Assembly (NCBI RefSeq): GCF_037154075.1
Contig: NZ_JBANRJ010000001.1
Span: 2,909,501 to 2,973,500, forward strand
Direction of reading: 5' to 3'
From: Sphingobium aromaticiconvertens
GTDB taxonomy: Bacteria > Pseudomonadota > Alphaproteobacteria > Sphingomonadales > Sphingomonadaceae
DNA length: 64,000 nucleotides
The position numbers and the translations under genes were made by a program. This document shows positions 17,658 to 35,593 of the stretch, piece after piece (the stretch's first letter is position 1; every line of letters starts with the position of its first letter). Under the pieces are notes generated by a model. That model searched no databases. It was not told the origin of the DNA and saw nothing but the letters and a program-made list of their open reading frames with translations.

Positions 17658-17681
17658 TTAAATTCTCCTGAAACACACGAT

Positions 17682-17719: not shown

Positions 17720-17746
17720 CCCGGCTATGGGCATGATTAATGACAT

Positions 17747-18886
17747 TTATGCAGCGGTCATGGCGGGATGGTGTTCGCCACCTATCCAGACACCTCTGGG
17801 CTTTAGTTCATGGTCGAGCCAAACAAGGTCAGCGCGCATTCCGGGCCCCAGCGCGCCACGATCCGTCAGCCCCATGAAGGCAGCCGGTGCCGATGCCGCC
17901 ATGATTGCGGCCTCGGCAAGCGAGAGCCCGACCATGTTCACCGCATTGCGAACCGCCGTCGCCATATCGAGGTCGGAGCCGGCCAGGACGCCCCCCTCCC
18001 CGATACAGACGCCGTCTTCCACCCGGATTGTCTTACCTTGCAATATGAAGGTCTTAGAGAGGCTACCGACCGTCGGCATCGCATCCGTGACCAGCATGAA
18101 ACGATCACGCGGGCGAGCCGCCATCGCGATACGCAGGGCCACCGGATCGACATGGCGGCCATCGACAATCACGCCAGCATACACGTGTTGATCCTCCAGC
18201 GTGGCGCCGACGACGCCGGGCGCTCGATGATTGAACGGCGACATGGCGTTGTACAGATGAGTCACGCCCGTCACGCCCATCGCAAACGCCGCCTTCATCG
18301 TTGCATAGTCCGCGTCGCTATGACCAGCCGCAACGATCACACCCGCCTCGGTAAGACGCCGGATGTCATCAGGCGCGCAGTTTTCGGGTGCAAGCGTCAC
18401 CAGCGTCCGACCAAGTTTCAGGCTGGTGAGAAGGGCGATGGCGCCGTCATCAAGGCGTCGAAACTTCTGCGGATCATGCGTCCCCTTGCGGGCGGCATTG
18501 AGAAAGGGGCCTTCCAGATGGATGCCGACCACGCCCGGAACCCCCTGAGCAATGGCCTGCTCGGTGGCCCGCATCGCTGCATCAACCTTATCAAGATCAT
18601 CTGAGATCAGGGTCGGAAGGAAGGTCGTCGTGCCGAACGGCAGATGGGCCTCACCGATCTGCGCGATGCTGGCAACCGTCGGGCTGTCGTTGAACAGCAC
18701 GCCCCCACCGCCATTGACCTGAGTGTCGATGAAGCCCGGCAGCAGGAAGCCACCTTCCAGATCGATATCCAGATCGGCGGATGTCGATTGATCGGACGCG
18801 ATCAACGCCCCGTCGATCGTCAGTGCGGCCGCGCGGCTCTCCCTCTGCCCAACAAGCCTACCATTGATAAAACGCGTGCGTTTCAT
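17747..18886 (-). CDS. nagA: N-acetylglucosamine-6-phosphate deacetylase
   Basis: The 379-residue protein is an amidohydrolase-superfamily deacetylase that converts GlcNAc-6-phosphate to glucosamine-6-phosphate plus acetate. Diagnostic segments are GGFLLPGFIDTQVNGGGG, the metal-site HLEGPFLNAARKGTHDP, AAGHSDADY, THLYNAMSPFNHRAPGVVG and the catalytic Asp in LVTDAMPTVG. Length and order match the family. Its ATG overlaps the stop of the SIS-domain gene by four bases (ATGA), so the two are translationally coupled, and both belong to the GlcNAc operon. Confidence 0.95.
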   Translation of the reverse strand: MKRTRFINGRLVGQRESRAAALTIDGALIASDQSTSADLDIDLEGGFLLPGFIDTQVNGGGGVLFNDSPTVASIAQIGEAHLPFGTTTFLPTLISDDLDKVDAAMRATEQAIAQGVPGVVGIHLEGPFLNAARKGTHDPQKFRRLDDGAIALLTSLKLGRTLVTLAPENCAPDDIRRLTEAGVIVAAGHSDADYATMKAAFAMGVTGVTHLYNAMSPFNHRAPGVVGATLEDQHVYAGVIVDGRHVDPVALRIAMAARPRDRFMLVTDAMPTVGSLSKTFILQGKTIRVEDGVCIGEGGVLAGSDLDMATAVRNAVNMVGLSLAEAAIMAASAPAAFMGLTDRGALGPGMRADLVWLDHELKPRGVWIGGEHHPAMTAA

Positions 18887-19938
18887 AGCGTCTGCGTCAC
18901 CTTTTTGAGGTGCGGCGGCATGTCCGGATCAAGCCCACGGCGCAAAGCGAGCGTGTTGACGAAACGATAGAAGCTCTGGATCATCAAAATCGGCTCCAGC
19001 ACGGGGTGGCCGCGCAGCGCGGGAAGGCCCGGGATAGCTCCCCCTGCATCGGCTAACCGCACTTGTGCGCCGCGATCAAGAAACTCCTTGCCTACCGCAC
19101 GCACATCATCGCCTGCCGCATCTGACGTGGCAAAACCCAGTATCGGGAAACCATCCCTCACGATCGCCATCGGTCCATGCCGGACTTCGGCGGACGAGAA
19201 GGCCTCTGCATGCAGTCCGCACGTTTCCTTCAGCTTGAGCGCGGCCTCCTGCGCCACCGCGAAACTATATCCACGACCGATCACGAACAGGTTCGTTGCC
19301 TGCTCCAACGGCGCGATGGCCGCGTTCCAATCCAGCGCGAACGCCTGCCGCAGAGCGTCCGGCAGACGGAGAAGGTCCGCCTCCAACGCCATATTGCCCG
19401 ACCAACGGGCGACGAGCGCCGCCAGACCGGCAAGCGATACGATATAGGATTTGGTCGCCGCCACCGAAAGTTCCGGCCCCGCTTCCAGCGGAAGGACGTC
19501 ATCCGCGTGTTCGGCAAGCGGCGAGGATGCATCATTGACCAGTGCGACCACAAAGGCTCCGGCAGCCTGATAGGCCTGCACCGTCTTCAAAAGGTCCGGG
19601 CTGCGACCCGACTGGGAAATGGCGATGCACAGCGCTCCGGGCGCGATCACGGGCGCGCTGAAAAGCGACGAAACCGACAGGGCGGCCGATGCGGTGGGAA
19701 TGCCGACCATCGTTTCGATCAAATATTTACCATAGGTCGCCGCATGATCGGATGATCCTCTGGCGCAGGTGATCACAGTGCTTGGCGGGTTGGCCTCAAG
19801 ACGGGCTACAATGCGATCAAGGGCCGCCTTGTTAACGTCAAGGAAGCGGGCAACGGCGTCAGCCGCTTCCTCAGCCTCAGCATGCATAAGGGTTTTATCG
19901 GGCATTTTGCCCAACGGCCCAGGGGTGGAGGGGGTCAT
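18883..19938 (-). CDS. SIS-domain glucosamine-6-phosphate deaminase, NagB-II type
   Basis: The 351-residue protein has two sugar-isomerase (SIS) domains like the C-terminal half of GlmS but no glutaminase domain. Phosphosugar-binding motifs are ITCARGSSDHAATYGKYLIE and CIAISQSGRSPDLLKTVQAY in the first domain and FVIGRGYSFAVAQEAALKLK in the second. In other proteobacteria such proteins next to nagA and lacking a classical NagB act as the non-orthologous glucosamine-6-phosphate deaminase NagB-II, giving fructose-6-phosphate and ammonia. I keep the ATG at 19938; an internal ATG at 19905 is an alternative with a similarly weak ribosome site. It is coupled to nagA by a four-base overlap. Confidence 0.88.
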   Translation of the reverse strand: MTPSTPGPLGKMPDKTLMHAEAEEAADAVARFLDVNKAALDRIVARLEANPPSTVITCARGSSDHAATYGKYLIETMVGIPTASAALSVSSLFSAPVIAPGALCIAISQSGRSPDLLKTVQAYQAAGAFVVALVNDASSPLAEHADDVLPLEAGPELSVAATKSYIVSLAGLAALVARWSGNMALEADLLRLPDALRQAFALDWNAAIAPLEQATNLFVIGRGYSFAVAQEAALKLKETCGLHAEAFSSAEVRHGPMAIVRDGFPILGFATSDAAGDDVRAVGKEFLDRGAQVRLADAGGAIPGLPALRGHPVLEPILMIQSFYRFVNTLALRRGLDPDMPPHLKKVTQTL

Positions 19939-19958
19939 TATAGAAAAGCTCCAGTGTT

Positions 19959-20735
19959 TCAGGGCGCACTATGGATTTGAGGGCAATGCCCCATGGCAGC
20001 GCGCAAATTCTCGACAAGGGACTGGTCCGTTTCCCGACGCTGGGCATGGACGAACCCCATGGAAACGGAGCGGGCATCGGTCGTATCCACCAGCCCGCCG
20101 CATGATGCGTGGACGGAACGAACACCCGCTCCATCAAGGATCGCGCGGACATTGGCCGCATTTATGCCGCTACCCGGCAGAATTTCGACCCGTCCGGCAG
20201 CGCGAGCCTGCATCGCTGCGATAGTCGCGATCCCGTCATAGGCTTTCAGCGCCCCGCCCGAGGTGAGGATTGTAGCGATACCAAGATCAACGGCGACATC
20301 CACCGCCACGACCAGATCGGGCAGCAGATCCACGGCCCGACTCAGTGTGACATCGAGTCCTGCCGCATGTGCCACCAGACGCTTAAGCACTACCAGATCC
20401 AGCTCCCCGGTCCGCGTCAGGGCGCCAATGACCACGCCTGCAAGACCCGCAGCGCGCGCGGCGTCGATTTCGTGCAGCATCACATCCTGTTCCACTGCAT
20501 CATAGACAAAGTCACCCGCGCGCGGCCGGATCATCGCACGTACCGGCACGGATATGCGCCCCGCCAGTTGCAACAGTCCCGGCGACGGGGTGAGGCCACC
20601 AACATCCAGCGCCGCGCACAGTTCGATACGATCTGCGCCCCCAGCGATGGCCGCGCGCAGGCCCGCCGGGGAATCGACACAGATTTCCATCAGCAAGGGC
20701 GTTTGAACGGGAGCAGAATTTTCCGCTGTCATCAT
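19959..20735 (-). CDS. cutC: CutC-family protein inside the GlcNAc operon
   Basis: The 258-residue protein is a TIM-barrel of the CutC family: MEICVDSPAGLRAAIAGGAD, RIELCAALDVGGLTPSPGLL, VPVRAMIRPRAGDFVY, ILTSGGALKAYDG and ILPGSGINAANV. The family was named for copper tolerance in Escherichia coli, but that role is disputed and the biochemical function is poorly settled. Here the gene starts within the nagP stop (ATGA overlap) and is followed 20 bases later by nagB-II, so it is embedded in the GlcNAc operon. This points to a role in amino-sugar metabolism, by inference from context. Confidence 0.9.
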   Translation of the reverse strand: MMTAENSAPVQTPLLMEICVDSPAGLRAAIAGGADRIELCAALDVGGLTPSPGLLQLAGRISVPVRAMIRPRAGDFVYDAVEQDVMLHEIDAARAAGLAGVVIGALTRTGELDLVVLKRLVAHAAGLDVTLSRAVDLLPDLVVAVDVAVDLGIATILTSGGALKAYDGIATIAAMQARAAGRVEILPGSGINAANVRAILDGAGVRSVHASCGGLVDTTDARSVSMGFVHAQRRETDQSLVENLRAAMGHCPQIHSAP

Positions 20736-22054
20736 GCCTCCGACCGATCGCTTCCGACGCGGCTGCCAACGATCCCGAAGAAGAGAATATAGCTATAGGC
20801 TGGCACCATCACCATCAGGAAGACAAGCTGAAAAGGCATATGTTCCTTCAGCATCGCGAACATCTGCGGCAGAATCGCACCGCCGCAAATCGCCATGATC
20901 ATGATCGCAGAGCCGGTTTCCGTATGACGGCCAAGTCCCCGGATCGCGAGGGGGAAGATAGCGGGCCACATCATTGCATTGGCAAAGCCAAGCGCCGCCA
21001 CGAAAGCCACCGACACATAGCCGTGCGTGGCATAGGCGCCCAACACGAACAGAATGCCGAGTATCGCCGAGAAGGCCAGATAGCGCTCCTGCGAAACAAA
21101 GCGCGGGATCACAACCAAACCGACCAGATAGCCCAGCAACATGCCCGCCAGCGTGAACGAGGTGAAGAAGGCTGTTTCGTCGATCGGCAGGCCGAAACCC
21201 TGCCCATAGGCACCGATGGCATCGCCAGCCATCACCTCAACCCCGACATAGAGGAACAGGCAAACCACACCGAGCCAGAGATGGCGATAGCTGGACAGAC
21301 CACGATCCGCCTCTCCGGCATCCGTTGACTTGGGGACCGTCGGCTGGATGTCCGGCAAGGGCGAGCGAAGCACAAATACGCCCAGCAAGGCCAACAGCCC
21401 GGCCATGGCCAGATAGGGCGCGTGGATCTTGGCTGCGAAGGCATTGAGCAAGGCTTCACGCGCCTCCAGGCTGGTTGCGGCCTTCACCTGGGCATCCAGT
21501 TCGCCTACCCCATGCAGCACCAGCGTCCCGATGACGATGGGCGCGAGGATGCCGGCCACCTTATTGCAGATGCCCATGACCGCAATACGCTGGGCCGCGC
21601 TTTCGATCGGTCCGACAATGGAAATATAGGGGTTAGCTGCCGTTTGCAGGATCGCAAGCCCCGCGCCGATCACGAACAGGCCGGTCAACGCGCCGGGAAA
21701 GATCCGCATCATCGCCATCTGCCCGAACAGGATGGCCCCCGCCGCCATGACGAACAGGCCCAGCGTCATGCCCTTTTTCATTCCCGTGCGGCGCAGGATC
21801 ATGGCTGATGGCAAAGCCAGGAAGAAATAGGACATGTAAAAGACCATCGGCACCAGAAAAGCCGAAACGTCGTCCAGCGTGAAGGCCAGCTTCACGAAGG
21901 TGATCAGCGGCCCATTGAGCCATGTCACAAAGCCAAAGATGAAGAACATCACACCGATAATTCCGGTGGTGACAAGCGGATTGACGCGCTGGCCCGCGGC
22001 GATGCCGTCAGCGGACATAGTGACGGAAGGCACTGTACGAGTGTCTGATGACAT
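20732..22054 (-). CDS. nagP: MFS sugar permease, probable N-acetylglucosamine transporter
   Basis: The 440-residue inner-membrane protein has about 12 hydrophobic segments and belongs to the FucP/GluP/NagP group of proton-coupled sugar importers. Typical parts are FFIFGFVTWLNGPLITFVKL, the GMKKGMTLGLFVMAAGA loop between helices, GAGLAILQTAANPYISIVGP, AAQRIAVMGICNKVAGILAP and LGFANAMMWPAIFPLAIRGL. The ATG at 22054 is preceded by AAGGGACCATC. It is the first gene of the operon and faces the ROK regulator across a 238-base gap, which supports GlcNAc as substrate. Confidence 0.9.
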   Translation of the reverse strand: MSSDTRTVPSVTMSADGIAAGQRVNPLVTTGIIGVMFFIFGFVTWLNGPLITFVKLAFTLDDVSAFLVPMVFYMSYFFLALPSAMILRRTGMKKGMTLGLFVMAAGAILFGQMAMMRIFPGALTGLFVIGAGLAILQTAANPYISIVGPIESAAQRIAVMGICNKVAGILAPIVIGTLVLHGVGELDAQVKAATSLEAREALLNAFAAKIHAPYLAMAGLLALLGVFVLRSPLPDIQPTVPKSTDAGEADRGLSSYRHLWLGVVCLFLYVGVEVMAGDAIGAYGQGFGLPIDETAFFTSFTLAGMLLGYLVGLVVIPRFVSQERYLAFSAILGILFVLGAYATHGYVSVAFVAALGFANAMMWPAIFPLAIRGLGRHTETGSAIMIMAICGGAILPQMFAMLKEHMPFQLVFLMVMVPAYSYILFFGIVGSRVGSDRSEA

Positions 22055-22292
22055 GATGGTCCCTTATCCTTCATTCAAAGTGCGGCCCTGCCCCGATCCG
22101 GGGTGCCATGGCCGCCCTTCCAGCGCGCCTCATGTTCCATTGCCCACGATCTCCGCTCTTTCCTGACGTTAGGATGCCGCAATCAGTCATGTCAAACTAT
22201 GTTGCACTTATTTGATCATTTTTTGAACTAAGTATTGCGACTCCGTTTCATTTCTGATTTAAATTCCTTCAGAAGGCGGAGATCGAACGATT
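22055..22292. promoter_or_regulatory. Divergent promoter region of the nag operon and ROK regulator
   Basis: This gap serves two outward-reading genes. Its AT-rich core at about 22190-22265 (CTATGTTGCACTTATTTGATC, then TTTTTTGAACTAAG) is the probable promoter and operator zone for the ROK-family repressor. No clear palindromic operator was defined by eye. Confidence 0.45.
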
Positions 22293-23414
22293 ATGCTGAC
22301 GGAAACACACGCCCATGTGCTGCGACTGATCAATCAGTCAGGGCCATTGAGTCGAACCGAATTGGTGAGCCAGTTGGGTGTCAGCAAGGCGTCGATGTCG
22401 GCCCTCGCCGCCGACCTTATTGAAAAGGGTATGCTGACCGAGGGCGAGATCGTCTATGGCGCGGGCCGCCCTTCGGTCCGGCTGGAACTGGCCGCATCCT
22501 CAGCCTTTTTCATCGGTATCTCGTTGGCGGCCAGCCCATTCATCGTGCGGATAACAGACCTGCACGGCAAGGTGGTTGGAGCAGCAGACATACCCGCAGC
22601 GACCGCACCGCTGGAGGTCGTGGAGGGCATCGTCCGCGCGGTCGAACACGCTTTGGACGGTACGGAAATCGAACGCGAACGCCTTGCCGGCATTGGCCTC
22701 GCTATTCCCGGCCTTATCGACGCAGGGAGCGGAATGTGCATCCGCTCTACAGTGTTGGGCTGGCGCAACGTGCCCATCGGCGAAATGGTGGCACAGGCAA
22801 TCGGCCTGCCAACCTTCGTTGAAAATGACGCCAACGCCGTAGCGCTGGGCGAGCATCTGTTCGGCAGCCTGCGCGGAAGCGACGCTTGCGCGATGATATC
22901 GGTGGGCGACGGCATCGGCTGCGGCCTGATCGTCAATGGCGAATTGCACAGGGGCGCGCGTGGCGGTGCGGGCGAAATCGCGCACGCCACCATCGAACTG
23001 AATGGCCTGCCCTGCAAATGCGGCAAGCGTGGATGCCTGGACACCCTCGCCTCGGCCAAGAGCATCTCCAATTTTGCGCGAGAAGCGGACTTGCCGGGCA
23101 CGCTGGCGGCGCTGGACGCGGCCGCGAACGACGGCAATCAGGATGCCATCGCTATCCTGCATCGCGCAGGCTCGGCCTTGGGCCTGGCCGTATCGCAGAT
23201 CGTGCAGACACTGGACCCGGAAAGAATCGTCATCGCCTTGTCCGACGGTCCGCTCGACGGTCCCTATGTGCGTGTCATCCGTCAGACGCTGGAAGCCAAT
23301 GTGATGGCCAACGAAACCCGCCAGATCGACCTCGCCATGATGCGTCTCAACGAAGAGGCATGGGCAGTCGGGGCCGCCAGCGTGGCGGCAGGGCGCGGCA
23401 TTTTCAGGCTCTAG
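22293..23414 (+). CDS. ROK-family transcriptional repressor of the nag operon
   Basis: The protein has 373 residues. Residues 1-65 form a winged helix-turn-helix (INQSGPLSRTELVSQLGVSK, ASMSALAADLIEKGML), followed by a ROK sugar-binding domain with GIGLAIPGLIDAGSG, FVENDANAVALGEHLFG, RGGAGEIAHATIELNG and the zinc motif CKCGKRGCLDT. This is the NagC/Mlc layout. It is divergent from the GlcNAc operon and lies just before a broken TBDR, so it most likely represses both in the absence of GlcNAc or GlcNAc-6-phosphate. Effector and operator are inferred. Confidence 0.9.
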   Translation: MLTETHAHVLRLINQSGPLSRTELVSQLGVSKASMSALAADLIEKGMLTEGEIVYGAGRPSVRLELAASSAFFIGISLAASPFIVRITDLHGKVVGAADIPAATAPLEVVEGIVRAVEHALDGTEIERERLAGIGLAIPGLIDAGSGMCIRSTVLGWRNVPIGEMVAQAIGLPTFVENDANAVALGEHLFGSLRGSDACAMISVGDGIGCGLIVNGELHRGARGGAGEIAHATIELNGLPCKCGKRGCLDTLASAKSISNFAREADLPGTLAALDAAANDGNQDAIAILHRAGSALGLAVSQIVQTLDPERIVIALSDGPLDGPYVRVIRQTLEANVMANETRQIDLAMMRLNEEAWAVGAASVAAGRGIFRL

Positions 23415-23528
23415 GGCAAAGGCGGGATGCCCCGCCGCAAAAAATATAAAAGCAGAGGCGGCAAAGAACGCCCGGTCATCAGCAGGAAGAACGTGAATTT
23501 TTTTTCACGAGATAAGGGCAAAATAAAA

Positions 23529-25069
23529 ATGAAAAAACAGTTTTCTCCGCTGCTTGTGGCGACCGCGCTCAGCACATTGTTCGGTGCCGGCGCTGTCCAC
23601 GCGCAGACGGCTTCTACCCCCACGGAACAGGGCAGCGAGACGTCCGGTCGCTTCAATGGTACTTCCGACCAGAGCATCGGCGACATCATCGTGACCGGCA
23701 ATGGCGTGTCTGCCAACGGCGTGACCAACACCACCCCCGGTGGTGGCCTGATGGCCGTGCAGACCGGCACCAAGCTGCGTAGCACCGTCACCCGCGACTA
23801 TATCGATAAGCTGGCCGCCACGACCACCGTTTTCACGGCGATCAAGAGCCTGCCCGGCGTCGTTCTGGGTAGCGGCGACCCCTTTGGCTCGTCGGCCAAC
23901 CTGACGATCCGCGGCCTCAGCCAGACATCGCTGGGCTTCAACTTCGAAGGCATGCCGATCGGTGATCAGCTATCGTACAGTGCCTTTCCCGGCGAATGGG
24001 CGGACACCGAAAATATCGGCCTGATCAACCTGACGCGCGGCTCCACCGACATCACAGCCCCCGTCTATAACTCGGTTGGCGCACTCTTGCAGGAAGAGAT
24101 GATCTCCCCCTCGCGTACTCCGGGCGGCTACGTCTCGTTCGCTATGGGCAACCATGATCTCAACCGCCAGTTCCTGCGCCTTGAAACCGGCGAAATCGGC
24201 GACACCGGTATCCGCGGCTTCATCTCCGGCTCTCGGACCTATAATGACAGCTGGCGCGGTCCAGGCCGTACCGAGCGGCATCATATCGACAGCAAGTTCG
24301 TCAAGGAATGGGGTGAGGATAACATCATCTCGCTGGTCGCGACCTATAACGAAGAAAAGTCGGACCGTTCGCGCAACCCCACCAAGGCGCAGTGGGACCA
24401 GTTTGGCCGCGATTTCAACTTCGACGCGACCTACACACCGGGCAACGCCAACTATTACCGCCTGCGCGTCGCTGACCGCCAGAGCCTGTACGTCAGCGCC
24501 CCGTCAAATATCCGGCTGACCAACAACCTCCAACTCTCCGTCACGCCATATTATCTCTACACTCATGGCGTCATCAACGGCGCCAGCAACCTGAACCTGA
24601 CCAATGCGTTCCAGGGCAATCAGCCAGCAGGCCCATTGCAGGCGCCCGGTGCGACCACCAACCCTGCGACGGTGATGAACGTCGATTATTACAACCAGGA
24701 CACCTTCGGCCAGAACAGCTATCTGAAATGGGACGTTGGTTCCGCGCAGATCCGCCTGGGCTATTGGTATTCGCATTTCGTGCATATCGAACGTGCGGCA
24801 TTCCAGGTTGCCGATGCGAACGGCAATGTCACTGACCCCTATGGTAAGACCGGATCGGTCCTGACCAGCAGCGGTGAAGTGTTCCGCAACTTTGCGGCAC
24901 GCATCGAACAGGATGTCCATGGCGTCTATGCCGATGCTACGCTGAAGGCCCTCGACGACAAGCTGCTGCTGAACGCCGGGTTCAAATATGTCTGGGTGGA
25001 CCGCACGGCCACCAGCCCGCTGCCGGGTACGGCGATGCTGACCAAAAGCATGAGCCGCAAGCCCCTGCT
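23529..25069 (+). pseudogene. TonB-dependent receptor A, front part only, cut by IS21
   Basis: The gene starts at the ATG at 23529 (AAGGGCAAAATAAAA upstream) with a signal peptide MKKQFSPLLVATALSTLFGA ending VHA-Q and a TonB-box-like DIIVTGNG. The plug reads LTIRGLSQTSLGFNFEGMPI. Barrel sequence continues to about residue 513 (FKYVWVDRTATSPLPG, TKSMSRKP) and then runs into the IS21 end; the frame stops at 25091 inside the element. About 250-300 C-terminal residues expected for this receptor type are missing, so no complete barrel can form. The position right after the ROK regulator suggests it was the GlcNAc or chito-oligosaccharide receptor. The sequence beyond the IS is not its continuation. 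Confidence 0.85.
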
Positions 25070-25172
25070 GTTGATTGCCGTTGAGAAGTGACCCGGGGAA
25101 GCCAGTAATTTCCACTGAGAAGTGACCCATGTTTGAACACGTCCCTGGCTTTGACGAGCGGGGGACCATGGA

Positions 25173-26705
25173 GTGTTGGACATGGCATTATTGAGCGTTA
25201 TCCGGCGGTGGCATTACCGCGATCATCTATCGATCCGGGAGATAGCCAGGCGCACCGGTCTTTCCCGCAACACCGTTCGTAAATATCTGCGGTCGGACAC
25301 GATCGAGCCGCAGTTCAAGGTGCCGGAGCGACCGAGCAAGCTGGACCCGTTCGTCGAGCGGCTGACAGCCTGGCTGAGGCGGGAGATGGGCCGTCCGCGC
25401 AAGCAGAAGCGCACGGTCAAGCAGTTGTATGCCGATCTGGTGAGCCTCGGCTTTGACGGTTCCTATGGCCGTGTCGCGGCCTTTGCCCGGGACTGGCGTG
25501 ATGATTATCGCCGCCAGCAGCAGATGAGCGGCAGAGGCACCTTCGTGCCGTTGTCCTTCGCACCGGGTGAGGCGTTCCAGTTCGACTGGAGCGAGGACTG
25601 GGCGATCATCGATGGCGTGCGCACCAAGCTGCAGGTCGCGCACTTCAAGCTCAGCTACAGTCGCGCCTTCTTTGTGCGGGCCTATCTACTGCAGACCCAC
25701 GAGATGCTGTTCGACGCCCATAATCATGCGTTCCGCGTGCTGGGCGGCGTGCCGCGACGCGGCATCTACGACAACATGAGGACTGCCGTCGACAAGGTCG
25801 GGCGCGGCAAGAGCCGGACCGTCAACGCCCGCTTCCTGACGATGGTGAGCCATTATCTGTTCGAGGCCGAGTTCTGTAATCCGGCCGCTGGGTGGGAGAA
25901 GGGCCAGGTCGAGAAGAACGTGCAGGATGCACGGCATCGCCTGTGGCAGCCTGTCCCCCAGACTCAGAGCCTCGACGCTTTGAACATCTGGCTGGAGGAG
26001 CGCTGCAAGGCGCTATGGCAGGATATTCCGCACGGAATCGAGCCCGGGTCTGTCGCTGATGCCTGGGCGGATGAGGTGGCGAGCCTGATGCCGACAGGCA
26101 GGGCGTTCGATGGCTTTGTCGAGTATGGCAAGCGGGTCTCACCGACCTGCCTCGTCCATCTCGAGCGCAACCGCTACAGCGTGCCGGCGTCGTTCGCCAA
26201 CCGCCCCGTCAGCCTGCGCGTCTATCCCGACCGCTTCCTGGTGGTCGCCGAGGGACAGTTGCTGTGCGAACACCAGCGTATCATCGAACGATCCCACGAT
26301 GGGCCGGGGCGCACCGTCTATGACTGGCGCCATTATCTGGCGGTGGTGCAGCGCAAGCCAGGTGCCCTGCGCAATGGGGCGCCGTTCCTTGAACTGCCTG
26401 ATCCCTTCCAGCGGCTGCAGCGGCATCTGTTGCGGTCTCCTGGCGGTGACAGGGAGATGGTCGAGATCCTGGCCCTGGTGCTGCATCATGACGAGCAGAC
26501 CGTGCTGACGGCCGTCACGATGGCGTTGGAGGGGGGCGTTCCAACCAAGACCCATATCCTCAACCTCCTGCACCGTCTGCTCGACGGCAAGCCGCTGACA
26601 ACGCCGCCGGTCACGGCGCCACAGGCGCTGAGACTGGTCAGCGAGCCGATGGCCAATGTCGAGCGCTATGACGCTCTGCGTCGGGAGAGCCGCCATGCGT
26701 CATGA
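25173..26705 (+). CDS. istA: IS21-family transposase IstA
   Basis: The 510-residue DDE transposase starts at GTG 25173 or ATG 25182. The N-terminus is a helix-turn-helix ([20 protein letters not shown]). The integrase core has its first Asp in [16 protein letters not shown] and the second in [16 protein letters not shown]. The Glu lies in the helix after [16 protein letters not shown]. It overlaps istB by 11 bases, the usual IS21 arrangement. Confidence 0.95.
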
Positions 26706-27477
26706 TCCCGCCAGCGGCGCTATTATCGTCATGCTGCGCAGCCTCAAGATGCACGGCATGGCGCAGGCCGTTACCGATCTCATGGAACAGGGTGCACCGG
26801 CGTTCGATGCCGCCATCCCGATCCTGTCCCAGCTCCTGAAGGCGGAGACTGCTGAACGAGAGGTGCGATCGGTATCCTATCAACTCAAGGCTGCGCGGTT
26901 CCCGGCCTATCGCGACCTGGCAGGCTTCGACTTCGCCAGCAGTGAGATCAACGAAGCGCTGGTGCGCCAGCTTCACCGCTGTGAGTTTATCGACGTTGCC
27001 GACAACATCGTGCTGGTCGGCGGCCCCGGCACCGGCAAGACCCACATCGCGACAGCGCTGGGCGTTCAGGCCATCGAGCATCATCGAAAACGGGTGCGGT
27101 TCTTCTCCACCGTCGAGTTGGTTAATGCGCTCGAACAGGAGAAGGCCCAGGGCAAGGCAGGCCAGGTCGCCGGAAGGCTCGCCCACGCCGATCTCGTGAT
27201 CCTCGATGAGCTCGGCTATCTGCCGTTCAGCGCCTCAGGCGGTGCATTGCTGTTCCATCTGCTCAGCAAACTTTACGAGCGCACCAGCGTCATCATCACC
27301 ACCAACCTCAGCTTCAGTGAATGGGCCACCGTGTTCGGTGATGCCAAGATGACCACAGCGCTGCTCGATCGGCTGACCCATCACTGCCACATCCTTGAAA
27401 CCGGCAACGACAGCTTCCGGTTCAAAAACAGCTCTGCTCAGCAGCCCACAGCGCGAAAGGAGAAAACCTCATCTTGA
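26695..27477 (+). CDS. istB: IS21-family helper ATPase IstB
   Basis: This 260-residue AAA+ ATPase has Walker [16 protein letters not shown], Walker [13 protein letters not shown] and the sensor region [19 protein letters not shown]. The start ATG at 26695 lies inside the end of istA with GGGAGAG upstream. IstB assists IstA in target selection and strand transfer. The coding frame is intact, so the element may still be mobile. Confidence 0.95.
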
Positions 27478-27561
27478 CCCAACGGTGACATCCGAAACAT
27501 AATCGCAAGGTGGGTCACTTCTCGATGAAAACCCCGGGTCACTTCTCAACGGCAATCAACA

Positions 27562-29272
27562 CAACTATGACACGATCAGCGCGCAAGCCTATGTCGGTGG
27601 TCCGCTGACCAACACCATCAGCGCAGATGTCGCGGTGACAAGCCTGCATCAGAATGAGGGCTGGGGAAGAAACCTGACCCGCAACACCAAGAACAAGGTG
27701 AATGACTATCAGGGCATTCGATCGAAAATCATCGCGCAACCGCTTGATGCGGTAAAGCTGACATTATCAGGCGATTATTTCACCAGCCAGGACAATGTCG
27801 GCCTGGGCTGGCGCCTCGGCGACGGAAGCGTCGGGACTGGCGGTTTTACCAGCCCTGGTAATCATGACACGACGGCCAATCATGAAGCCCTGACCAAGCT
27901 GCGCCTTTGGGGTCTCAGCCTGACGGGTGAAGTGGATCTTGATTTTGCTACCCTGACCAGCATCACCGCCCTTCGGCGCACCCGCAATAACAGCAGGTTC
28001 GACGTGGATGGCGGGCCGCTCAACCTCGTCAACATCGAATATCTGGCGCGCGGCAAGACCTTTCAGCAGGAATTACGGCTCGCCTCCAGCGAAACAGAAC
28101 CATTTTCCTGGCAGATTGGCGCCTTTTACCTGCGGTCGCAGGCGAGCACGAATCAAAATCAGAACGGGGTTGCGTTCACCGCGCAAAGCCTGCGTGAGAT
28201 CGACATCCTATCATCATTGACGACCAAATCTTATGCGGCATTTGGCGAACTGACCTATTCGATCACACCAACCACCAAGATTACCGGCGGCCTGCGCTAC
28301 ACCAAGGATAGCCGCGATTTTGATGGCAACCAGACCCCAACCCTTTTGAACGGCAGCACATTGCCAACGACGTCAGTGCTATCCAATCTCAAATATAGCG
28401 AGTTCACCTACAGGGCAGCGTTGCGTCAGGAACTTACCGACACCATCAATGTCTATGCATCGGTGAACCGTGGTTTCAAGGCCGGAACCTACAGCCTGCA
28501 AAGCCCCAGCAGCCCGCCTGTGAAGCCACAATTCATCATGGCGTATGAAGGCGGCATCAAATCGGAACTGTTCGATCGTCGGCTGCGGCTCAATCTGGCG
28601 GCCTATCATTATGACATTGATGACTATCAGGTACGCTCTGCGGCCGCCGCCAACCCCGGTGCGAACATCCTCCTCAACGCCGCGACGGTCAAAGTGGACG
28701 GTTTCGACGCAGAGTTCGAAGGCATCGTCACCGACCAGTTGCGCATTTTTGGCGGCCTGACCGCCATCAAATCCCGGTTCAGTAAATTTGGCGGGCCCGG
28801 CGCCGAATTTCAGGCCCCTATTTCCTACCCCAATCCTGCCACCTGCCCCGCCGATCTTCGCGGCAGCACCAATCCCGGTTTCCTTGGCACCGGCCCGCGC
28901 ACGGGCGGGCTAACAACCTGTTTTGGCGACGTGTCAGGCAACCGCACGCCACTCGCGCCAAAGTTCGCCAGCAGCATCGGCGCCAGCTATACAATCGATG
29001 TTGGCGTTTCGGGCAGCCTGCGCTTTTCCGCCTTGTACAATTATAATAGCGGCTATGTTTTCGAGCCTGACAACAAAGCGCGGCAAGGCAGCTTCAGCCT
29101 CGTCAATGGATCAATTGAATATCGCCCGAACGAGCAGGTCGGCATCGAACTGTGGGCAAACAACATCACCGACACCGAATATGTGGTTCAGGGCCTTTCG
29201 ACCGGGACCGGCATCACTGAGGTTATTGCTCCCCCGCGTACCTATGGCGTGAACGTCAAATTCAAATTCTGA
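27562..29272 (+). pseudogene. TonB-dependent receptor B, back part only, fused to IS21
   Basis: Immediately after the IS21 end an open frame of 570 codons begins at NYDTISAQAYVGGPLTNTIS and reads to the stop at 29272. It carries early, middle and late barrel segments: DYQGIRSKIIAQPLDAVKLT, QELRLASSETEPFSWQIGAF, INVYASVNRGFKAGTYSL and a C-terminal TYGVNVKFKF ending in Phe. The signal peptide, TonB box and plug (about the first 170-200 residues) are absent. It cannot be the continuation of receptor A, which already contains much of a barrel. It leads into the SDR/CMD/MFS genes and was probably their cognate receptor. Confidence 0.85.
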
Positions 29273-29324
29273 CCCCGTTTCTTGATGCTGTCGCTGGCCC
29301 GTTGGCCTTACGGAAAGGAATAGG

Positions 29325-30074
29325 ATGCTTAAGAAAGTTGCATTGGTCACGGGCGCCCGCGCCGGTATCGGCAAAGCCATCGCGCTTCGGCTCGCGCAGG
29401 AAGGGATCGCCGTGGGCGTGCTCGACCTCATCATCAAAGATGCGCGCCAAGTGGCGAACGACATTGTGGCAGCCGGTGGGCAGGCCATCGCGCTTGAAGC
29501 CAACATCGCTGATCGTGAGCAGGTTCAGGCCGCTCTCACCACGCTGCGCGCAACCTTCGGTCCCGTAACGATCCTGGTGAACAATGCCGGCATCACCGGC
29601 TTTGTCGCCTTTGAGGATCTGACGGATTCGCAGTGGGATGACATGATGACGGTCAACCTGAAAGGCACCTTCATTGTAACCCAAGAGACTCTGCCCGACA
29701 TGAAGGCCGCGCAATGGGGCCGGATCGTCAACATCTCCTCCTCCAGCGCACAGACGGGGGCCGTCAGGATGGCGCATTACTCAGCATCCAAGGGCGCGAT
29801 GATCAGCCTCACTCGCACGCTGGCTCTTGAACTGGGACCGCTCGGCATCACCGTGAACAACATCCCGCCGGGTTCGGTGATGAACACGATCATGTCCGAA
29901 GCCAATCGCCAGCGGATGCCGCTGTCCGAAGATGTTCTGCTGGCAACCCTGCCCGTGCGCCGCCTTGGCGAACCAGAGGACATCGCCAACGCCTGCGCAT
30001 GGCTGGTTTCCGAACAGAGTGGCTATGTCACCGGCCAGACGATCGGGGTGAACGGCGGGCGGGTGGTGAGCTAA
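29325..30074 (+). CDS. Short-chain dehydrogenase/reductase (FabG-like)
   Basis: The 249-residue protein has the classical SDR layout. The cofactor motif is TGARAGIGKAIAL, the structural motif NNAG is in ILVNNAGITGF, and the catalytic residues are Ser in IVNISSSSAQTG and YSASKGAMIS (Tyr-x-x-x-Lys). The Asp at the end of strand 2 (VGVLDLI) favours NAD over NADP. GGAAAGGAATAGG precedes the ATG at 29325. It lies 52 bases after receptor fragment B and one base before the CMD gene. It should oxidise or reduce a hydroxyl/keto group in the pathway of that operon; the substrate is unknown. Confidence 0.9.
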   Translation: MLKKVALVTGARAGIGKAIALRLAQEGIAVGVLDLIIKDARQVANDIVAAGGQAIALEANIADREQVQAALTTLRATFGPVTILVNNAGITGFVAFEDLTDSQWDDMMTVNLKGTFIVTQETLPDMKAAQWGRIVNISSSSAQTGAVRMAHYSASKGAMISLTRTLALELGPLGITVNNIPPGSVMNTIMSEANRQRMPLSEDVLLATLPVRRLGEPEDIANACAWLVSEQSGYVTGQTIGVNGGRVVS

Positions 30075-30075
30075 A

Positions 30076-30711
30076 ATGACCTTCCCGGCAATCCAGAACG
30101 GTCCGATCGACGTCGATATCGATAAACGGATGGCGCAAGTTGTTGGCGCGGAACCGCGTGTTCATCCTGTGTCGTCTGATAAACTTTCCTCCGAACAGAT
30201 GAAAATGATCGAATCCATTCGCGGGTCGATCGGCAGCGGCATGGCCAGCGAGATTCCGGAATTCTTCCGCACCGCAGTGAAGCATCCGGCCTTGTTCCGC
30301 TGTCAGATGGAAGCCGGAACCCTGTTTTTCACGGGCACGATCCCGCCACGGCAGCGTGAAATGGCTGTCCTGCGGATCGCGTGGCTGTGCCGCGCGCCCT
30401 ATGAATGGGGCGAGCATGTTGACATCGCCAAACGTTATGGCGTGTCTGCGGAGGAGATCGAGCGCGTAACTCAGGGTTCCAGCGCGCCCGGCTGGAGCGA
30501 TCAGGACGTGGCGCTCCTCAGCGCAGTCGAAGAATTGCTGGGCGACCATGCAATAGCCGATGCGACATGGTCGGTACTCAGTGCGATCTGGTCCGAGGAG
30601 CAGTTGCTGGAATTTCCAATGCTGGTGGGCGCATATGTCACCACCGCTCTACAACAGAACACCCTCCGCATGCGACTGGCCAAGGACAACCCTGGCCTTT
30701 CGCATAGATGA
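30076..30711 (+). CDS. Carboxymuconolactone decarboxylase-family protein
   Basis: The 211-residue protein belongs to the CMD/AhpD-like group: FFTGTIPPRQREMAVLRIAW, then YEWGEHVDIAKRYGVSAEEI. It has the YEWGEH segment common in this sub-branch but no CxxC peroxidase pair, so alkylhydroperoxidase activity is unlikely. Decarboxylase or hydrolase roles toward lactone or ring-cleavage products are known for family members. It starts one base after the SDR stop and overlaps the MFS gene by four bases, so all three are one operon. The true substrate is not known. Confidence 0.85.
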   Translation: MTFPAIQNGPIDVDIDKRMAQVVGAEPRVHPVSSDKLSSEQMKMIESIRGSIGSGMASEIPEFFRTAVKHPALFRCQMEAGTLFFTGTIPPRQREMAVLRIAWLCRAPYEWGEHVDIAKRYGVSAEEIERVTQGSSAPGWSDQDVALLSAVEELLGDHAIADATWSVLSAIWSEEQLLEFPMLVGAYVTTALQQNTLRMRLAKDNPGLSHR

Positions 30712-31988
30712 CAATCGAATCCGGGAGGACAGATTTGAATACCCAGCAGACAAGTGCGTTTCAGGAGTGGCGCACCCATTGGGGTTTGGTGCTGGCTTCC
30801 TTCATTGGCTTCTCCTTTCATTCACTGACGACCTATTCCGCCGGGTTATTCATCCTGCCCCTCTCCACCGAATTTGGCTGGAGCCGGGCGCAGGCAACGG
30901 CAGGGCTGTCGATCGCGGCGCTCGCATCGATTCCGCTCGGCCCGGTGGTTGGCGCGATAGTCGACCGCTGGGGCGTGCGAATTCCAGCAATTACAGGGCT
31001 CGCCTTGACGGCCTGCGCGGTTAGTCTTTTCAGCATTGCAAGTGGGTCGTTCACCCAGTGGATCGCTCTGTGGACATTCTATGCAATCGTCGCGACCGGA
31101 ATCAAATCCACGGTCTGGACGGTCGCCGTGACAGGCACCTTCACTGCGGCCCGTGGACTTGCACTGGGCTTCGTTATGTGTGGCGCGGCTGCGGCCCAAA
31201 TCGTGACTCCGCCACTTACCCGCTGGCTTATCGACAGCCAGGGTTGGCGTTTTGCCTATATCTGGATGGGCCTGGGATGGGGCAGCATTGCACTTCTGGC
31301 GGCGATCTTCCTGTTCTTCGACGCGCGGGCGAAGAAGGAACGCATGGCCAAGGCAGTCGAAGCGAGAAAGCTGTCCGCCGCAGATTTTCCAGGCCTTGGT
31401 TTCCGCGAAGCAATGGGCAATCCCGCTCTCATCTGCGTCGCCATATCCACAGTGATCACCATGTTCATGGGCATAGCCCTGATCGTGCATCAGGTTCCCA
31501 TTCTCACCGAGCTTGGCGTATCACGGTCGAACGCGGCCTATCTGGCAAGTTTGAGCGGCGTGGCCGGCATTGCCGGGAAACTTGGCACCGGCTGGATGTC
31601 GGACAGGTGGGATGCCCGGCTGATTGGGGGCATTACGCTGGCGGTACCAGCCTTTGCATTCATCCTGCTGCTGGAACCGATCCGCACACCGTTCCTGATA
31701 GTGTTGGCGATGATCATCATTGGCTATTCATCGGGCGCAAAGCTGCAAATCTCCGCCTACCTCACCAGCCGCTATGTCGGAATGCGAAATTTCGGAAAAG
31801 TATTTGGGGTGATCGGCGGGCTAATCGCTGCGGGCACGGGCCTGGGACCAGTCACCGCTGCGTGGACGTTCGACCATTATGGCGGCTACATGCCTTTCAT
31901 CCTTCTGGGCATACCGATCAGCCTGTTGTGCGGCGTGCTGATAGCCAGATTGCCGCCATTCCCCGACTGGACTGTTTCAACAGCCTAA
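30708..31988 (+). CDS. MFS transporter, monocarboxylate/organic-acid type
   Basis: The 426-residue inner-membrane protein has 12 predicted membrane segments. It shows the MFS motif-A region GAIVDRWGVRI after helix 2 and its repeat GWMSDRWDARLIGG in the second half. The N-terminal FSFHSLTTYSAGLFILPLST, EFGWSRAQATAGLSIAAL resembles bacterial monocarboxylate/oxalate-formate type carriers found next to aromatic or carboxylic acid pathways. The ATG at 30708 overlaps the CMD stop. It likely imports the acid used by the SDR and CMD enzymes. Confidence 0.88.
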   Translation: MTIESGRTDLNTQQTSAFQEWRTHWGLVLASFIGFSFHSLTTYSAGLFILPLSTEFGWSRAQATAGLSIAALASIPLGPVVGAIVDRWGVRIPAITGLALTACAVSLFSIASGSFTQWIALWTFYAIVATGIKSTVWTVAVTGTFTAARGLALGFVMCGAAAAQIVTPPLTRWLIDSQGWRFAYIWMGLGWGSIALLAAIFLFFDARAKKERMAKAVEARKLSAADFPGLGFREAMGNPALICVAISTVITMFMGIALIVHQVPILTELGVSRSNAAYLASLSGVAGIAGKLGTGWMSDRWDARLIGGITLAVPAFAFILLLEPIRTPFLIVLAMIIIGYSSGAKLQISAYLTSRYVGMRNFGKVFGVIGGLIAAGTGLGPVTAAWTFDHYGGYMPFILLGIPISLLCGVLIARLPPFPDWTVSTA

Positions 31989-32075
31989 CGAACACATTCC
32001 GCGTCACCAGCGTTATATCGATGCGATGGCGGGACGGCTCCTTCAAGGTGTTTGCCTGCATCCCTGGAGGCGGAC

Positions 32076-32810
32076 ATGATCTTCACCGATTTCCTGCGCG
32101 GTCGACGGCGCCACGAACTGACAGCCGACGATCTTGCCGCATTGGAAGCGGTCGCTAACGATGTTCGCACTCTGCCAGCGCGCCAGACCTTCATCCGCCA
32201 GCATGAGCCGGTGCATTTCAGCACTTACCTTATCGAAGGGCTGATGTGTCGCTACATGGACGATCGGGAGGGGCTACGCCAACTGGTCGCCCTGCACGTC
32301 ACGGGCGATTTCGTCGACCTCCACGGCTATCCCCTCCGCTATCTCGACCATGACCTTGCGACGATCACCCCATGCCAGATCGTCACCGTTCCGCATGAGC
32401 GCCTCGATCAACTGATGGAGAACCGTCCTCATCTGGCAAAACTACTCTGGTTCAGCACGCTGATGGATGCCGCGATCCATCGCGAATGGATCTTCGCCCT
32501 TGGCAGGCTGGACGCAGTCGGCCGTGTAGCCCATTTCTTCTGTGAGACGGAGGCAAAGTTACGCGCTGTCGGCCTGTCCGATGGACGGCGCTTCGCCCTG
32601 CCGATCACCCAGGCCGATCTGGGCGAGGCCTGCGGCATCACTTCTGTCCATATGAACAGGATGCTGCGCGATTTGCGCGAAGACGGTATATTGCGTTTCT
32701 GGGGCGGCAAGGCGGAAATACTGGATCGCGCGCGACTGGAGCGGAGGGCGGAGTTCGATCCCGCCTATCTCTATCTGGATCGCCTGCCCGTCGATAGCGA
32801 GCGCGCCTGA
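32076..32810 (+). CDS. Crp/Fnr-family transcriptional regulator
   Basis: I start the protein at the ATG at 32076 because GGAGGCGGAC is a strong ribosome site; this gives 244 residues. An N-terminal cyclic-nucleotide-binding-like beta barrel (LVALHVTGDFVDLHGYPL) is followed by a dimer helix and a C-terminal Crp-type helix-turn-helix (ITQADLGEACGITSVHMNRM, LRDLREDGIL). The N-terminal cysteine cluster of oxygen-sensing Fnr is absent, so the signal is not an Fe-S cluster of that type. It sits between the MFS operon and a convergent GST gene; it may regulate the former. Confidence 0.88.
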   Translation: MIFTDFLRGRRRHELTADDLAALEAVANDVRTLPARQTFIRQHEPVHFSTYLIEGLMCRYMDDREGLRQLVALHVTGDFVDLHGYPLRYLDHDLATITPCQIVTVPHERLDQLMENRPHLAKLLWFSTLMDAAIHREWIFALGRLDAVGRVAHFFCETEAKLRAVGLSDGRRFALPITQADLGEACGITSVHMNRMLRDLREDGILRFWGGKAEILDRARLERRAEFDPAYLYLDRLPVDSERA

Positions 32811-32823
32811 ACGATTGCCCGGC

Positions 32824-33450
32824 TTACTCCGCATCCGATTGTGCCTGCGGAGCCGCCGCTGCAAAAGCTGGTAAGGCCAGACACGCCGCTTCAATCGCCC
32901 CAATCCTCCCATAATCTGTCCGCGCACCAAAACGCCGCGCATTGACGAGTTGCGGCACCAGGCAAATATCCGCCAGCGTCGGCCTTTCTCCAAGACAATA
33001 TGGCCCGCCATCGTCACCAATCAGTCGCGCGCACGCCTCCAGCCCGTCTTCGATCACGGTTCGCGCCCAACCCACGACATCCTCCTTCCCGACACCAAGT
33101 CCGCGTAGCCGGTCAAGTATCTTCAAATTCTGAACAGGATGCACATCGCAGGCGATCACCAGCGCCACGGCCCGCACATGCGCGCGCGCCACCGGATCGG
33201 CGGGCAGCAGAGGTGGCTCCGGGCAGGTTTCGTCCAGATATTCGCAGATCGCAATGCTCTGGGTGAGTATATCGCCATTCACCTCCAGCGCCGGGACGAG
33301 TCCCTGCGGGTTAACGGCCAGATAGGCCGGCGCGCGCTGTTCTCCCTTCCGCAAGTGATGAAAGGCGTCGGTATAGGTCAACCCTTTCAGGTTCAGCGCA
33401 ATGCGGACTCGATAGGTCGCGGTGGACCGGAAATAACCATGCAGGATCAT
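32824..33450 (-). CDS. maiA: Maleylacetoacetate isomerase-like glutathione S-transferase
   Basis: The 208-residue protein is a zeta-class GST. The active-site region FRSTATYRVRIALNLKG carries the Ser and Arg used to position glutathione. NPQGLVPALEVNGDILTQSI is the glutathione-binding cis-Pro segment with the conserved Gln-Ser, and PVQNLKILDRL is the zeta-class signature in the C-terminal domain. Such enzymes isomerise maleylacetoacetate or maleylpyruvate in tyrosine or gentisate breakdown. No other genes of those pathways are in view, so the physiological substrate is uncertain. Confidence 0.87.
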   Translation of the reverse strand: MILHGYFRSTATYRVRIALNLKGLTYTDAFHHLRKGEQRAPAYLAVNPQGLVPALEVNGDILTQSIAICEYLDETCPEPPLLPADPVARAHVRAVALVIACDVHPVQNLKILDRLRGLGVGKEDVVGWARTVIEDGLEACARLIGDDGGPYCLGERPTLADICLVPQLVNARRFGARTDYGRIGAIEAACLALPAFAAAAPQAQSDAE

Positions 33451-33494
33451 GTGTCAGTCCCTCGCCGAAGGTCCAATGATGATGATCGTATCGC

Positions 33495-34439
33495 CTACTT
33501 CTTACGGAGGATGCAGCGAAAGCCGATATGGCTGGTCGAACTGTCCACCGCCTGCGGATGGCGTGCTGCCGGGCGATAGCGCTGGCAATAATTGGGCGCA
33601 CAAAGATGCGATCCGCCTTTCAGCACCTTACGGCCGATCGGTGGCGCGCCCGGTTCCAGGCTTTCCCGCTTCGTGCCCCCGCGTGGATTGGCGGGAACGC
33701 AGCAGCTGCCCTTCGCCTTGCGCTCGGTTCGGGGCTGCCCATACCAGTCGGTCGTCCATTCCCATACATTGCCGATCATGTCGAACAGGCCACGCCCGTT
33801 CGCCGCATAACTGCGGACGGGCGATGTCCGCTCATAGCCATCCTCCAGCAGATTGCTGAACGGAAAGGCACCCTGCCAATAGTTCGCCTGGCAAATGCCG
33901 CTGGGCGCCAGTTCATCACCCCAGGCATAGTCGGCGCCGTCCAGTCCACCGCGCGCCGCGTACTCCCACTCCGCCTCGGTCGGCAACGCCTTGCCTGCCC
34001 AGCGGGCATAGGCCTCCGCATCTTCCAGAACGACATGGACCACCGGATGATCCTCCAGCCCGTCCAGGCCGCTGTCCGGCCCATGCGGATGCCGCCAGTC
34101 CGTACCGAAACTGAACGACCACCATTGGGAATAATCCTGCAAGTCGACCGGACCACGCGTGCGCTGGAACAGCAGCGATCCGGCGCGGGCCATCTCTGGC
34201 GGCATCCCCGGATAGTCGCGCAGATCGGGCGCGATCTCGGCCAGCGTGCGATGTCCTGTCGCCTCGACAAAACGCGCAAAAGCCCGATTGGTGACGGGCG
34301 TTTCGTCGATCCAGAAGCCATCGACACTGACCGTCCTGACCGGCGCTTCCTCCGGGTAGAAGCGATCCGATCCCATGGCAAAGGCTCCGCCCTCGACGAA
34401 GCGCATATCCCGTGTCATCGTGTCGTCCATCACCGTCAT
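33495..34439 (-). CDS. Formylglycine-generating enzyme (SUMF1) family protein
   Basis: The 314-residue protein has the full FGE-sulfatase domain: FVEGGAFAMGSDRFYPEEAP, GFWIDETPVTNRAFARFVEA, LPTEAEWEYAARGGLDGADY, DMIGNVWEWTTDWYG and the C-terminal GGSHLCAPNYCQRYRPAARH, with GFRC at the end. The two cysteines in C-x4-C before RYR correspond to the redox and copper-binding pair of true formylglycine-generating enzymes. It is therefore a likely aerobic activator of type I sulfatases, converting a CxPxR cysteine to formylglycine. No sulfatase gene lies in this window. It is divergent from the LacI gene. Confidence 0.9.
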   Translation of the reverse strand: MTVMDDTMTRDMRFVEGGAFAMGSDRFYPEEAPVRTVSVDGFWIDETPVTNRAFARFVEATGHRTLAEIAPDLRDYPGMPPEMARAGSLLFQRTRGPVDLQDYSQWWSFSFGTDWRHPHGPDSGLDGLEDHPVVHVVLEDAEAYARWAGKALPTEAEWEYAARGGLDGADYAWGDELAPSGICQANYWQGAFPFSNLLEDGYERTSPVRSYAANGRGLFDMIGNVWEWTTDWYGQPRTERKAKGSCCVPANPRGGTKRESLEPGAPPIGRKVLKGGSHLCAPNYCQRYRPAARHPQAVDSSTSHIGFRCILRKK

Positions 34440-34558
34440 CCACCGGTTCCTCTTGTCGCAGATCTGCGTGCCGCTTTATCCATTCATAGCCCCTTGCGGC
34501 GCAAAATCCATTCTATCACAGCTTGATCCCATAGCTTCCGTCCCGCTATCATTCCGCC

Positions 34559-35593
34559 ATGCAGGAAACGGCAGCCGGTCCCGGCGGAGATGGGATAACG
34601 ATTGCCGACGTGGCGGCGCAAGCGGGGGTGTCTATCCGTACCGTCTCGCGCGTCATCAACCATTCGCCCAAGGTGAACGGCGAAACTCGCGAACGGATCG
34701 AGGCGGCGATAGCCGCGCTCGGCTTCCGTCCCAGCGCGCGGGCGCGGGGGTTGGCGACCGGCCGCTCCTATCTGATCGGCATGGTCCATAATGATCGCAA
34801 TGCGCTGGTGCTGGACAGCGTGCAGCGGGGTATCGTCGGCGAAGCGGCGCGCCGGGGCTATGAACTGGTCGTCCATCCCACGCCTACGCAAGACGACCGG
34901 TCGGTGGAGGATGTGATTGACTTTGCCCGGCGCTCCCGCGTCGACGGAATCGTGGCGCTGCCGCCGGTTTCCGGGCTGATCGGCCTCGCCAAAGCCTTAT
35001 CAGGCGTTGGCGTGCCTGCCATCGCCCTGTCCTCCGTCCAGCTCGACGATTTCGCCGCCATGCTCATATCCGACGAACGGAGCGCAGCAGGAGAGGTGGC
35101 GCGACATTTCCTGGACCTCGGGCATCGGCATATCGCGCTGGTATCGGGTCCAGCCACCGCCCACTCCGCGCTGGAGCGTCGCGCGGGTTTCATCGCCGCG
35201 CTCGCCGCAGCAGGCCATGTTCTCGCCGGAGAGATTGAGGGCGACTATGGCTTCGCGTCAGGGGTGGCTGCCGCGCGCTCGCTGCTGGACCTGTCCCCCA
35301 TGCCCACCGCCATATTCGCGGCCAATGACGTCATGGCAGCGGGCGTCCTCAAGGAAGCGGCAGCCCGCTCCATTGCCGTACCGGGGCAACTTTCGGTCGT
35401 CGGCTTCGACGGCAGCCTGCTCGCGCAGATGCTGACCCCCGCGCTCAGCACCGTGCATCGTCCGCTAGGGGACATGGCGGCGCGTGCCACGGCCTGCCTG
35501 ATCGACATGATCGAGGGGACAGCGACCGACACCGACCTGCGGGTGACGCTGGGACTGGTGCCCGGAGAATCGAGCGGCCCAGCCCCATGCTGA
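34559..35593 (+). CDS. LacI-family transcriptional regulator
   Basis: The 344-residue protein has the LacI helix-turn-helix (ITIADVAAQAGVSIRTVSRV, INHSPKVNGETRERI) with the hinge ARARGLATGRSYLIGM, then a periplasmic-binding-protein-like sensor domain (ALVSGPATAHSALERRAGFI; IFAANDVMAAGVL; LSVVGFDGSL). These regulators respond to sugars or sugar phosphates. It is convergent with the hexuronate operon, ending eight bases before uxuB, and divergent from the FGE gene across 119 bases. It may act on the hexuronate genes or an unseen sugar locus. Confidence 0.92.
   Translation: MQETAAGPGGDGITIADVAAQAGVSIRTVSRVINHSPKVNGETRERIEAAIAALGFRPSARARGLATGRSYLIGMVHNDRNALVLDSVQRGIVGEAARRGYELVVHPTPTQDDRSVEDVIDFARRSRVDGIVALPPVSGLIGLAKALSGVGVPAIALSSVQLDDFAAMLISDERSAAGEVARHFLDLGHRHIALVSGPATAHSALERRAGFIAALAAAGHVLAGEIEGDYGFASGVAAARSLLDLSPMPTAIFAANDVMAAGVLKEAAARSIAVPGQLSVVGFDGSLLAQMLTPALSTVHRPLGDMAARATACLIDMIEGTATDTDLRVTLGLVPGESSGPAPC

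Follow-up and report, generated by a model that had tools for sequence, protein, structure and literature searches.

A 64,000-nucleotide stretch of the genome of Sphingobium aromaticiconvertens (contig NZ_JBANRJ010000001.1, positions 2,909,501 to 2,973,500; the whole stretch is the window, and plain coordinates below are positions within it) contains the front of one TonB receptor gene and the back of another, joined by an insertion sequence (IS). The 5' part of receptor gene A (23529-25068, plus strand) comprises 513 codons for the signal, the plug and the first part of the barrel, and is cut by the IS; its frame extends for seven more codons, the first of which spans the junction, to a stop within the IS. 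The 3' part of receptor gene B (27562-29272, plus strand) comprises 569 codons and a stop, encoding a barrel without signal and plug. Between them, 25069-27561 (plus strand) is a complete IS21-family element of 2493 bp, here called IS21-a. In Pfam searches, the Plug domain (PF07715) was found in the left fragment (23529-25067, 513 aa) and the barrel was not; the barrel (PF00593) was found in the right fragment (27563-29269, 569 aa) and the plug was not.

By protein search and alignment, A corresponds to residues 1-511 of an intact receptor of 788 residues (P0001, 97-98%), and B to residues 196-764 of an intact receptor of 764 residues (P0107, 95%). These two full-length relatives exist separately and can be aligned with each other over about 113 residues only, at 25%. 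Together the fragments amount to 1082 residues (513 + 569) compared to 764-788 for one receptor, so that some 315 positions of the barrel occur twice, each time from a different protein. Aligned coverage of B stayed below 60% in each of the 106 proteins matching A, and that of A likewise in each of the 120 listed of the 1355 proteins matching B; a single homologue running end to end through both fragments was thus seen neither among the A matches nor among the listed B matches. For the matches seen, the presence of two unrelated proteins, each with its own full-length relative, refutes a simple insertion into a single receptor gene, and the proposal of the initial annotation that these are halves of two different receptors is upheld. 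Judged from their sequences, both receptors are almost surely non-functional, since A has lost the last third of its barrel and B its signal and plug.

The terminal inverted repeats of IS21-a (25069-25098, plus strand, and 27532-27561, minus strand) are 30 nt long and 100% complementary. The element encodes the IS21 transposase IstA (istA, 25173-26705, plus strand; 327 bits against NCBIfam model NF033546, cut-off 160) and the helper ATPase IstB (istB, 26656-27477, plus strand, taken as the longest frame; 282 bits against NF038214, cut-off 200), the two frames overlapping at 26656-26705. Its ends are TG...CA, and the end motif GAGAAGTGACCC is repeated within each end. In the two proteins above their cut-offs, the terminal dinucleotides and the repeated end motif, IS21-a resembles the elements of the IS21 family. 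The outer flanks are ...AAGCCCCTGC on the left and CAACTATGACA on the right, and no target duplication was found at these edges, the longest exact direct repeat being one base; the perfect 30-bp ends and the missing duplication had both been noted in the initial annotation. It is by its genes and its ends that the element is assigned to the family, and the absent duplication concerns the insertion, not the element. The genome contains nine copies of IS21-a, the other eight with at most one mismatch to the copy in the window; seven are unbroken and two are interrupted by a second IS21 element.

Target duplications and flank patterns of IS21-a

Elements of the IS21 family typically duplicate 4-8 bp of their target. 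Eight of the nine IS21-a copies in the genome lack a duplication, the exception (C1:4103744) having one of 9 bp. Among full-length copies elsewhere, duplications were found at 4 of 25 in other genomes of the family and at 2 of 16 on plasmids, for a total of 7 of 50 copies with a duplication (7-9 bp) and 43 without; allowing one mismatch over at least 7 bases raises the count to 8 of 50, and mismatched flank pairs give a duplication by chance in 5 of 2450 cases. These counts include both L202 and L203, which represent one insertion (7 of 49 if one is dropped). Partial matches to IS21-a (19 of 37 rows in one genome survey and 6 of 30 in another) were not used for duplications; one genome survey was limited to two scored places in each genome and another covered 12 of the 25 other matching genomes, so that more full-length copies may exist, and the plasmid sample consists of 16 fetched of the 40 listed matches (131 records). 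The lack of duplications extends to IS21-a in single-contig genomes of other genera. By comparison, IS21 itself produced 5-bp repeats in all ten in vitro insertions sequenced (PMC10122671).

The second IS21 element of the same genome, IS21-b (about 2.34 kb), belongs to the same family, with 29% identity in IstA and 38% in IstB over the aligned parts, and behaves differently from IS21-a: all four of its copies found in this genome are flanked by duplications of 5-7 bp (taking the element to end in CA shortens the 7-bp case to 5 bp), as are all seven full-length copies in other genomes (5-7 bp), making 11 of 11. By Fisher's test the difference between IS21-a and IS21-b has p = 0.007 within the genome and p = 8e-8 for all copies, which are not fully independent of each other. 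This contrast makes decay and poor assembly unlikely as the cause of the lacking duplications; their absence seems to be characteristic of the IS21-a group. No report of missing target duplications in an IS21 group was found in the titles and abstract openings of the open-licence papers listed. IS21-b elements (78% alike) are nested within two IS21-a copies, at L065:8064-10410 and L066:6750-9092, with short duplications.

Because 43 of 50 copies in the group have no duplication, the absence of one is a weak argument for recombination between two copies, contrary to the use made of it in the initial annotation, and at any one copy it is no proof of such an event. Had two copies exchanged flanks, the left flank of one copy would match the right flank of another; in the 72 ordered pairs of copies in this genome there was no match (longest, 2 bases), and none of 50 ordered within-genome pairs elsewhere had matching opposite flanks of at least 4 bases, so no partner of an inversion or flank swap is seen.

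The flanks themselves contain a base pattern. The test used 41 of 49 IS21-a copies, L203 (the twin of L202) and the eight copies with an exact or near duplication being excluded, and flanks were read outward from the IS on both sides. Both flanks of these 41 duplication-free copies favour C at position 3, A/T at 4, G at 5, C/G at 7 and T/A at 9. The pattern derived from one flank scores best at the IS edge of the other flank compared to 189 other offsets, in both directions, and ranked first in 50 of 50 draws in which each of 23 genomes or plasmid records contributed a single copy. As a group, then, IS21-a joints without a duplication look like pairs of genuine IS21 target halves taken from two sites. 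This favours one of two events, that two insertions recombined or that a single copy attacked a second target, and counts against deletion ends placed at random and against entry of the IS into breaks. Two copies, L060 (C1:498196) and L061 (C1:1131656), have the same eight bases, GGCCAGCC, on the istA side and differ in their wider flanks; the only other same-side match of eight bases among the 50 copies is that of L202 and L203, a single insertion.

Origin of the joint between A and B

The joint in the window has the features of a deletion made by an IS: two cut genes, a single IS between them and no duplication. The preferred interpretation, to which a probability of roughly 0.7 is assigned, is that it is the scar of a deletion in which IS21-a removed the DNA separating A from B. 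A and B would once have stood on one molecule in direct order, and an IS21-a copy would have joined a cut inside A to a cut inside B, the intervening DNA being lost. The loss would comprise 277 residues of A, the gene of the M81 family that follows A in relatives (see below), any further DNA on the way to B, and the first 195 residues of B including its start. Deletions without target duplication are described in PMC11708052 for IS150 in the Lenski lines and IS5 in E. coli C, and the joint resembles these in its single IS and missing duplication; they differ in that the ancestor is known there and inferred here, and IS21 is not named in the main text of that paper. A mobile element that joins two cut genes after a deletion is thus of a known kind, and the single joint between A and B amounts to ordinary gene loss by a mobile element; the interesting part, and the one that matters more, is the scarcity of duplications across the IS21-a group and its contrast with IS21-b.

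The DNA behind A can be reconstructed from relatives. In Sphingobium lactosutens (NZ_QJQX01000052), window positions 17054-25068 are colinear with a locus in which A is intact and is followed by an M81/MlrC-like gene, and the position immediately after A is occupied by this gene in 7 of 7 sphingomonad loci tested. All seven have the back of A and the M81 gene in order; no relative carrying both A and B was found, nor one with B in the place behind A. A whole-genome search of the source genome, made without a positive control, gave no match to the M81 gene. Loss of DNA beyond the two receptors is likely, given that the gene is present behind A in every relative tested and has no match here, and the expectation of the initial annotation that both receptors had been destroyed and material lost is supported. 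With the M81 gene and the missing parts of A and B as queries, tblastn of the window and the surroundings of the eight other IS21-a copies gave a best E of 0.009, with positive results for the controls on relatives. The back of A has only four other matches in the genome (25-29%), all in receptors with open frames of 756-896 aa and none within 10 kb of another IS21-a copy. For the front of B, a whole-genome search using a relative at 50%, which is about 71% alike to B's actual front, gave 67 matches (others 25-42%), none of them within 10 kb of another IS21-a copy. A reciprocal joint was sought at the eight other IS21-a copies and rejected at each: they have no back of A, no front of B and no matching flanks.

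Two routes to the deletion are considered about equally probable. By one, two IS21-a copies in direct orientation would have recombined; by the other, the ends of one resident copy, perhaps a tandem, would have attacked a new target. According to PMC10122671, IstA acts on single and on tandem copies of IS21, which makes attack on a second target by a putative tandem at this site plausible. The initial annotation had proposed recombination between two IS21 copies; of that proposal, the loss of material with IS21 at the joint is supported, and recombination is one candidate mechanism, deletion by the transposase of a single copy fitting equally. A broader interpretation, held tentatively and at distinctly less than even odds, is that the IS21-a group forms deletions by nature, most surviving insertions being joints of two targets, with each end placed by the transposase and the DNA between lost. 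Its companion proposition, that the sister group IS21-b makes ordinary insertions in the same cells, unlike IS21-a, is put forward with similar reserve. If this were true, the choice of an IS21 element between insertion and deletion would depend on a difference in IstA, IstB or the structure of the ends; the testable question raised is whether deletion is a normal outcome of the IS21-a transposase.

Several results weigh against a deletion between A and B. No genome was found in which A, the missing stretch and B follow one another, and the search for the M81 gene had the limit mentioned above. The flank pattern is weaker when the copies of this genome are taken alone (ranks 1, 6, 3 and 10 of 190), and training on the eight copies with an exact or near duplication yields ranks of only 11 and 16 among 190; in the window, the flank on the A side fits moderately (top 8% of background sites) and not convincingly, and the flank on the B side is ordinary, 75% of background sites scoring as high. 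The relatives of B in 93 other species of the genus are distant, at 50% at best, so that B may have come from outside. A match to B at E <= 1e-60 occurs in 33 of 94 genomes of the genus, its own included, and a relative at 65% occurs in Sphingomonas naphthae.

The near-solitary position of B in the genus also favours a different event, in which imported DNA containing IS21-a, the tail of B and the row of genes behind it replaced the region behind A, with the IS as left border and a shared sequence near the FGE gene (33510-34406) as right border. Between the point where A is broken and the FGE gene, S. lactosutens is wholly different, with about 16.8 kb there and 8.4 kb here; its FGE gene is 78% alike and has the same direction; and the G+C content of 27562-33450 is 58.8%, compared to 60.5% to the left and 62.4% to the right. 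The right border is, however, backed by a single gene, FGE genes at 76-79% are also found on Sphingobium plasmids, so that the shared position may be chance, and the replacement still presupposes that an IS had cut B beforehand. Such a replacement, the main rival to the deletion, is considered unlikely, though it deserves some weight. There is much less to be said for an assembly artefact in which identical IS21-a copies were misjoined or collapsed. Nine near-identical copies of 2493 bp would invite such an error; a flank swap, however, would put the back of A and the front of B at another copy, where neither is found, the genome (5.45 Mb, 6 contigs) is 99.97% complete, and duplications are equally lacking in the single-contig genomes of other genera. 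A collapse in which the intervening stretch was lost keeps a small probability. It is slightly less probable still that the IS jumped into a DNA break or an existing fusion without a staggered cut, as PMC11708052 proposes for rearrangements of IS5 and IS481 without target duplication, because target-site patterns on both flanks of duplication-free copies would not then be expected.

Other IS21-a joints and neighbouring genes

Like the copy in the window, several other IS21-a copies lie between cut genes. The copy at C1:2662348 has a cut IS110-type transposase on one side and, on the other, a cut transposase that contains HTH_21 and rve domains and is read here as IS3-type. The copy at C1:2729700 separates a cut DUF6602 gene from a TonB receptor tail (41% over 135 residues; no Pfam match), and that at C1:498196 terminates a TonB receptor at residue 534 of about 857. 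The receptor parts at these last two places were considered as one gene and rejected, because they are 72% and 41% alike to the same relative and about 190 residues would be unaccounted for. In genome G194 (L185, C1:831050), parts of two different helicase genes are connected by an IS21-a copy that lacks a duplication; of the plasmid matches to one part, the five listed (of 621) are named as strawberry notch-type proteins, and the five listed for the other (of 45) as a different helicase.

Three of the nine IS21-a copies (C1:498196, C1:2729700 and the window) break TonB receptor genes, four receptors in all, and an IS21-a copy on a plasmid of Sphingobium amiense (L196) also abuts a receptor tail. 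As a guess, receptor breakage by IS21-a may reflect tolerated loss or selection, for example by phage. At C1:1131656 (L061:7151-8056), IS21-a lies between a tyrosine integrase and an open frame of 302 aa without a Pfam domain, in what is perhaps a cut island.

Empty sites were sought for five copies in sister plasmids (the best 12-14 of 92-332 records each), and the one informative record among these was from Rhizobium sp. Y9. Comparison of the plasmids of Agrobacterium pusense and Rhizobium sp. Y9 (L202/L213) places a relative of IS21-a in an insert of 3 kb with a 17-bp repeat at its borders, of which Y9 has a single copy; the insert is possibly a larger mobile unit, and because the IS lies inside it the comparison does not settle the question of an empty site for IS21-a. 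When the flanks of 14 more copies (one with a near duplication) and of the intended positive control L091 were scanned for domains, 18 of the 30 gave none, among them both flanks of L091, so that the scan is weak evidence.

Upstream of A in the window, a ROK-family regulator gene (22293-23414, plus strand; PF00480) belongs to the N-acetylglucosamine (GlcNAc, nag) locus, which continues on the minus strand (17750-22054) with nagA-like, NagB-II-like and NagP-like genes and an open reading frame that we take, from reading alone, to be CutC-like. The nagA-like gene scores above the cut-off of TIGR00221; the NagB-II-like and NagP-like genes are both below the cut-offs of the models of those names, and the latter is above that of the gluP subfamily. 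Downstream of B, on the plus strand and with spacing of at most 52 bp, are an SDR gene (29325-30074; PF00106), a carboxymuconolactone decarboxylase (CMD)-family gene (30076-30711; PF02627) and an MFS transporter gene (30708-31988; PF07690). The initial annotation had placed A in the GlcNAc locus and B at the head of the SDR/CMD/MFS row; both placements hold for the window, and the row is not seen beside relatives of B in three genomes (G120, G062 and G022), where tblastn found no CMD or MFS genes and only SDR genes at 31-32%. The contig of G062 stops just behind the B relative, so that its downstream side cannot be judged.

No Rfam family matched at gathering scores in 20000-35000. At 27474-27503, within IS21-a, a promoter-like match (to the consensus only) is directed outward through the right IS end to the tail of B and the SDR/CMD/MFS row, which, at a guess, it could now drive.

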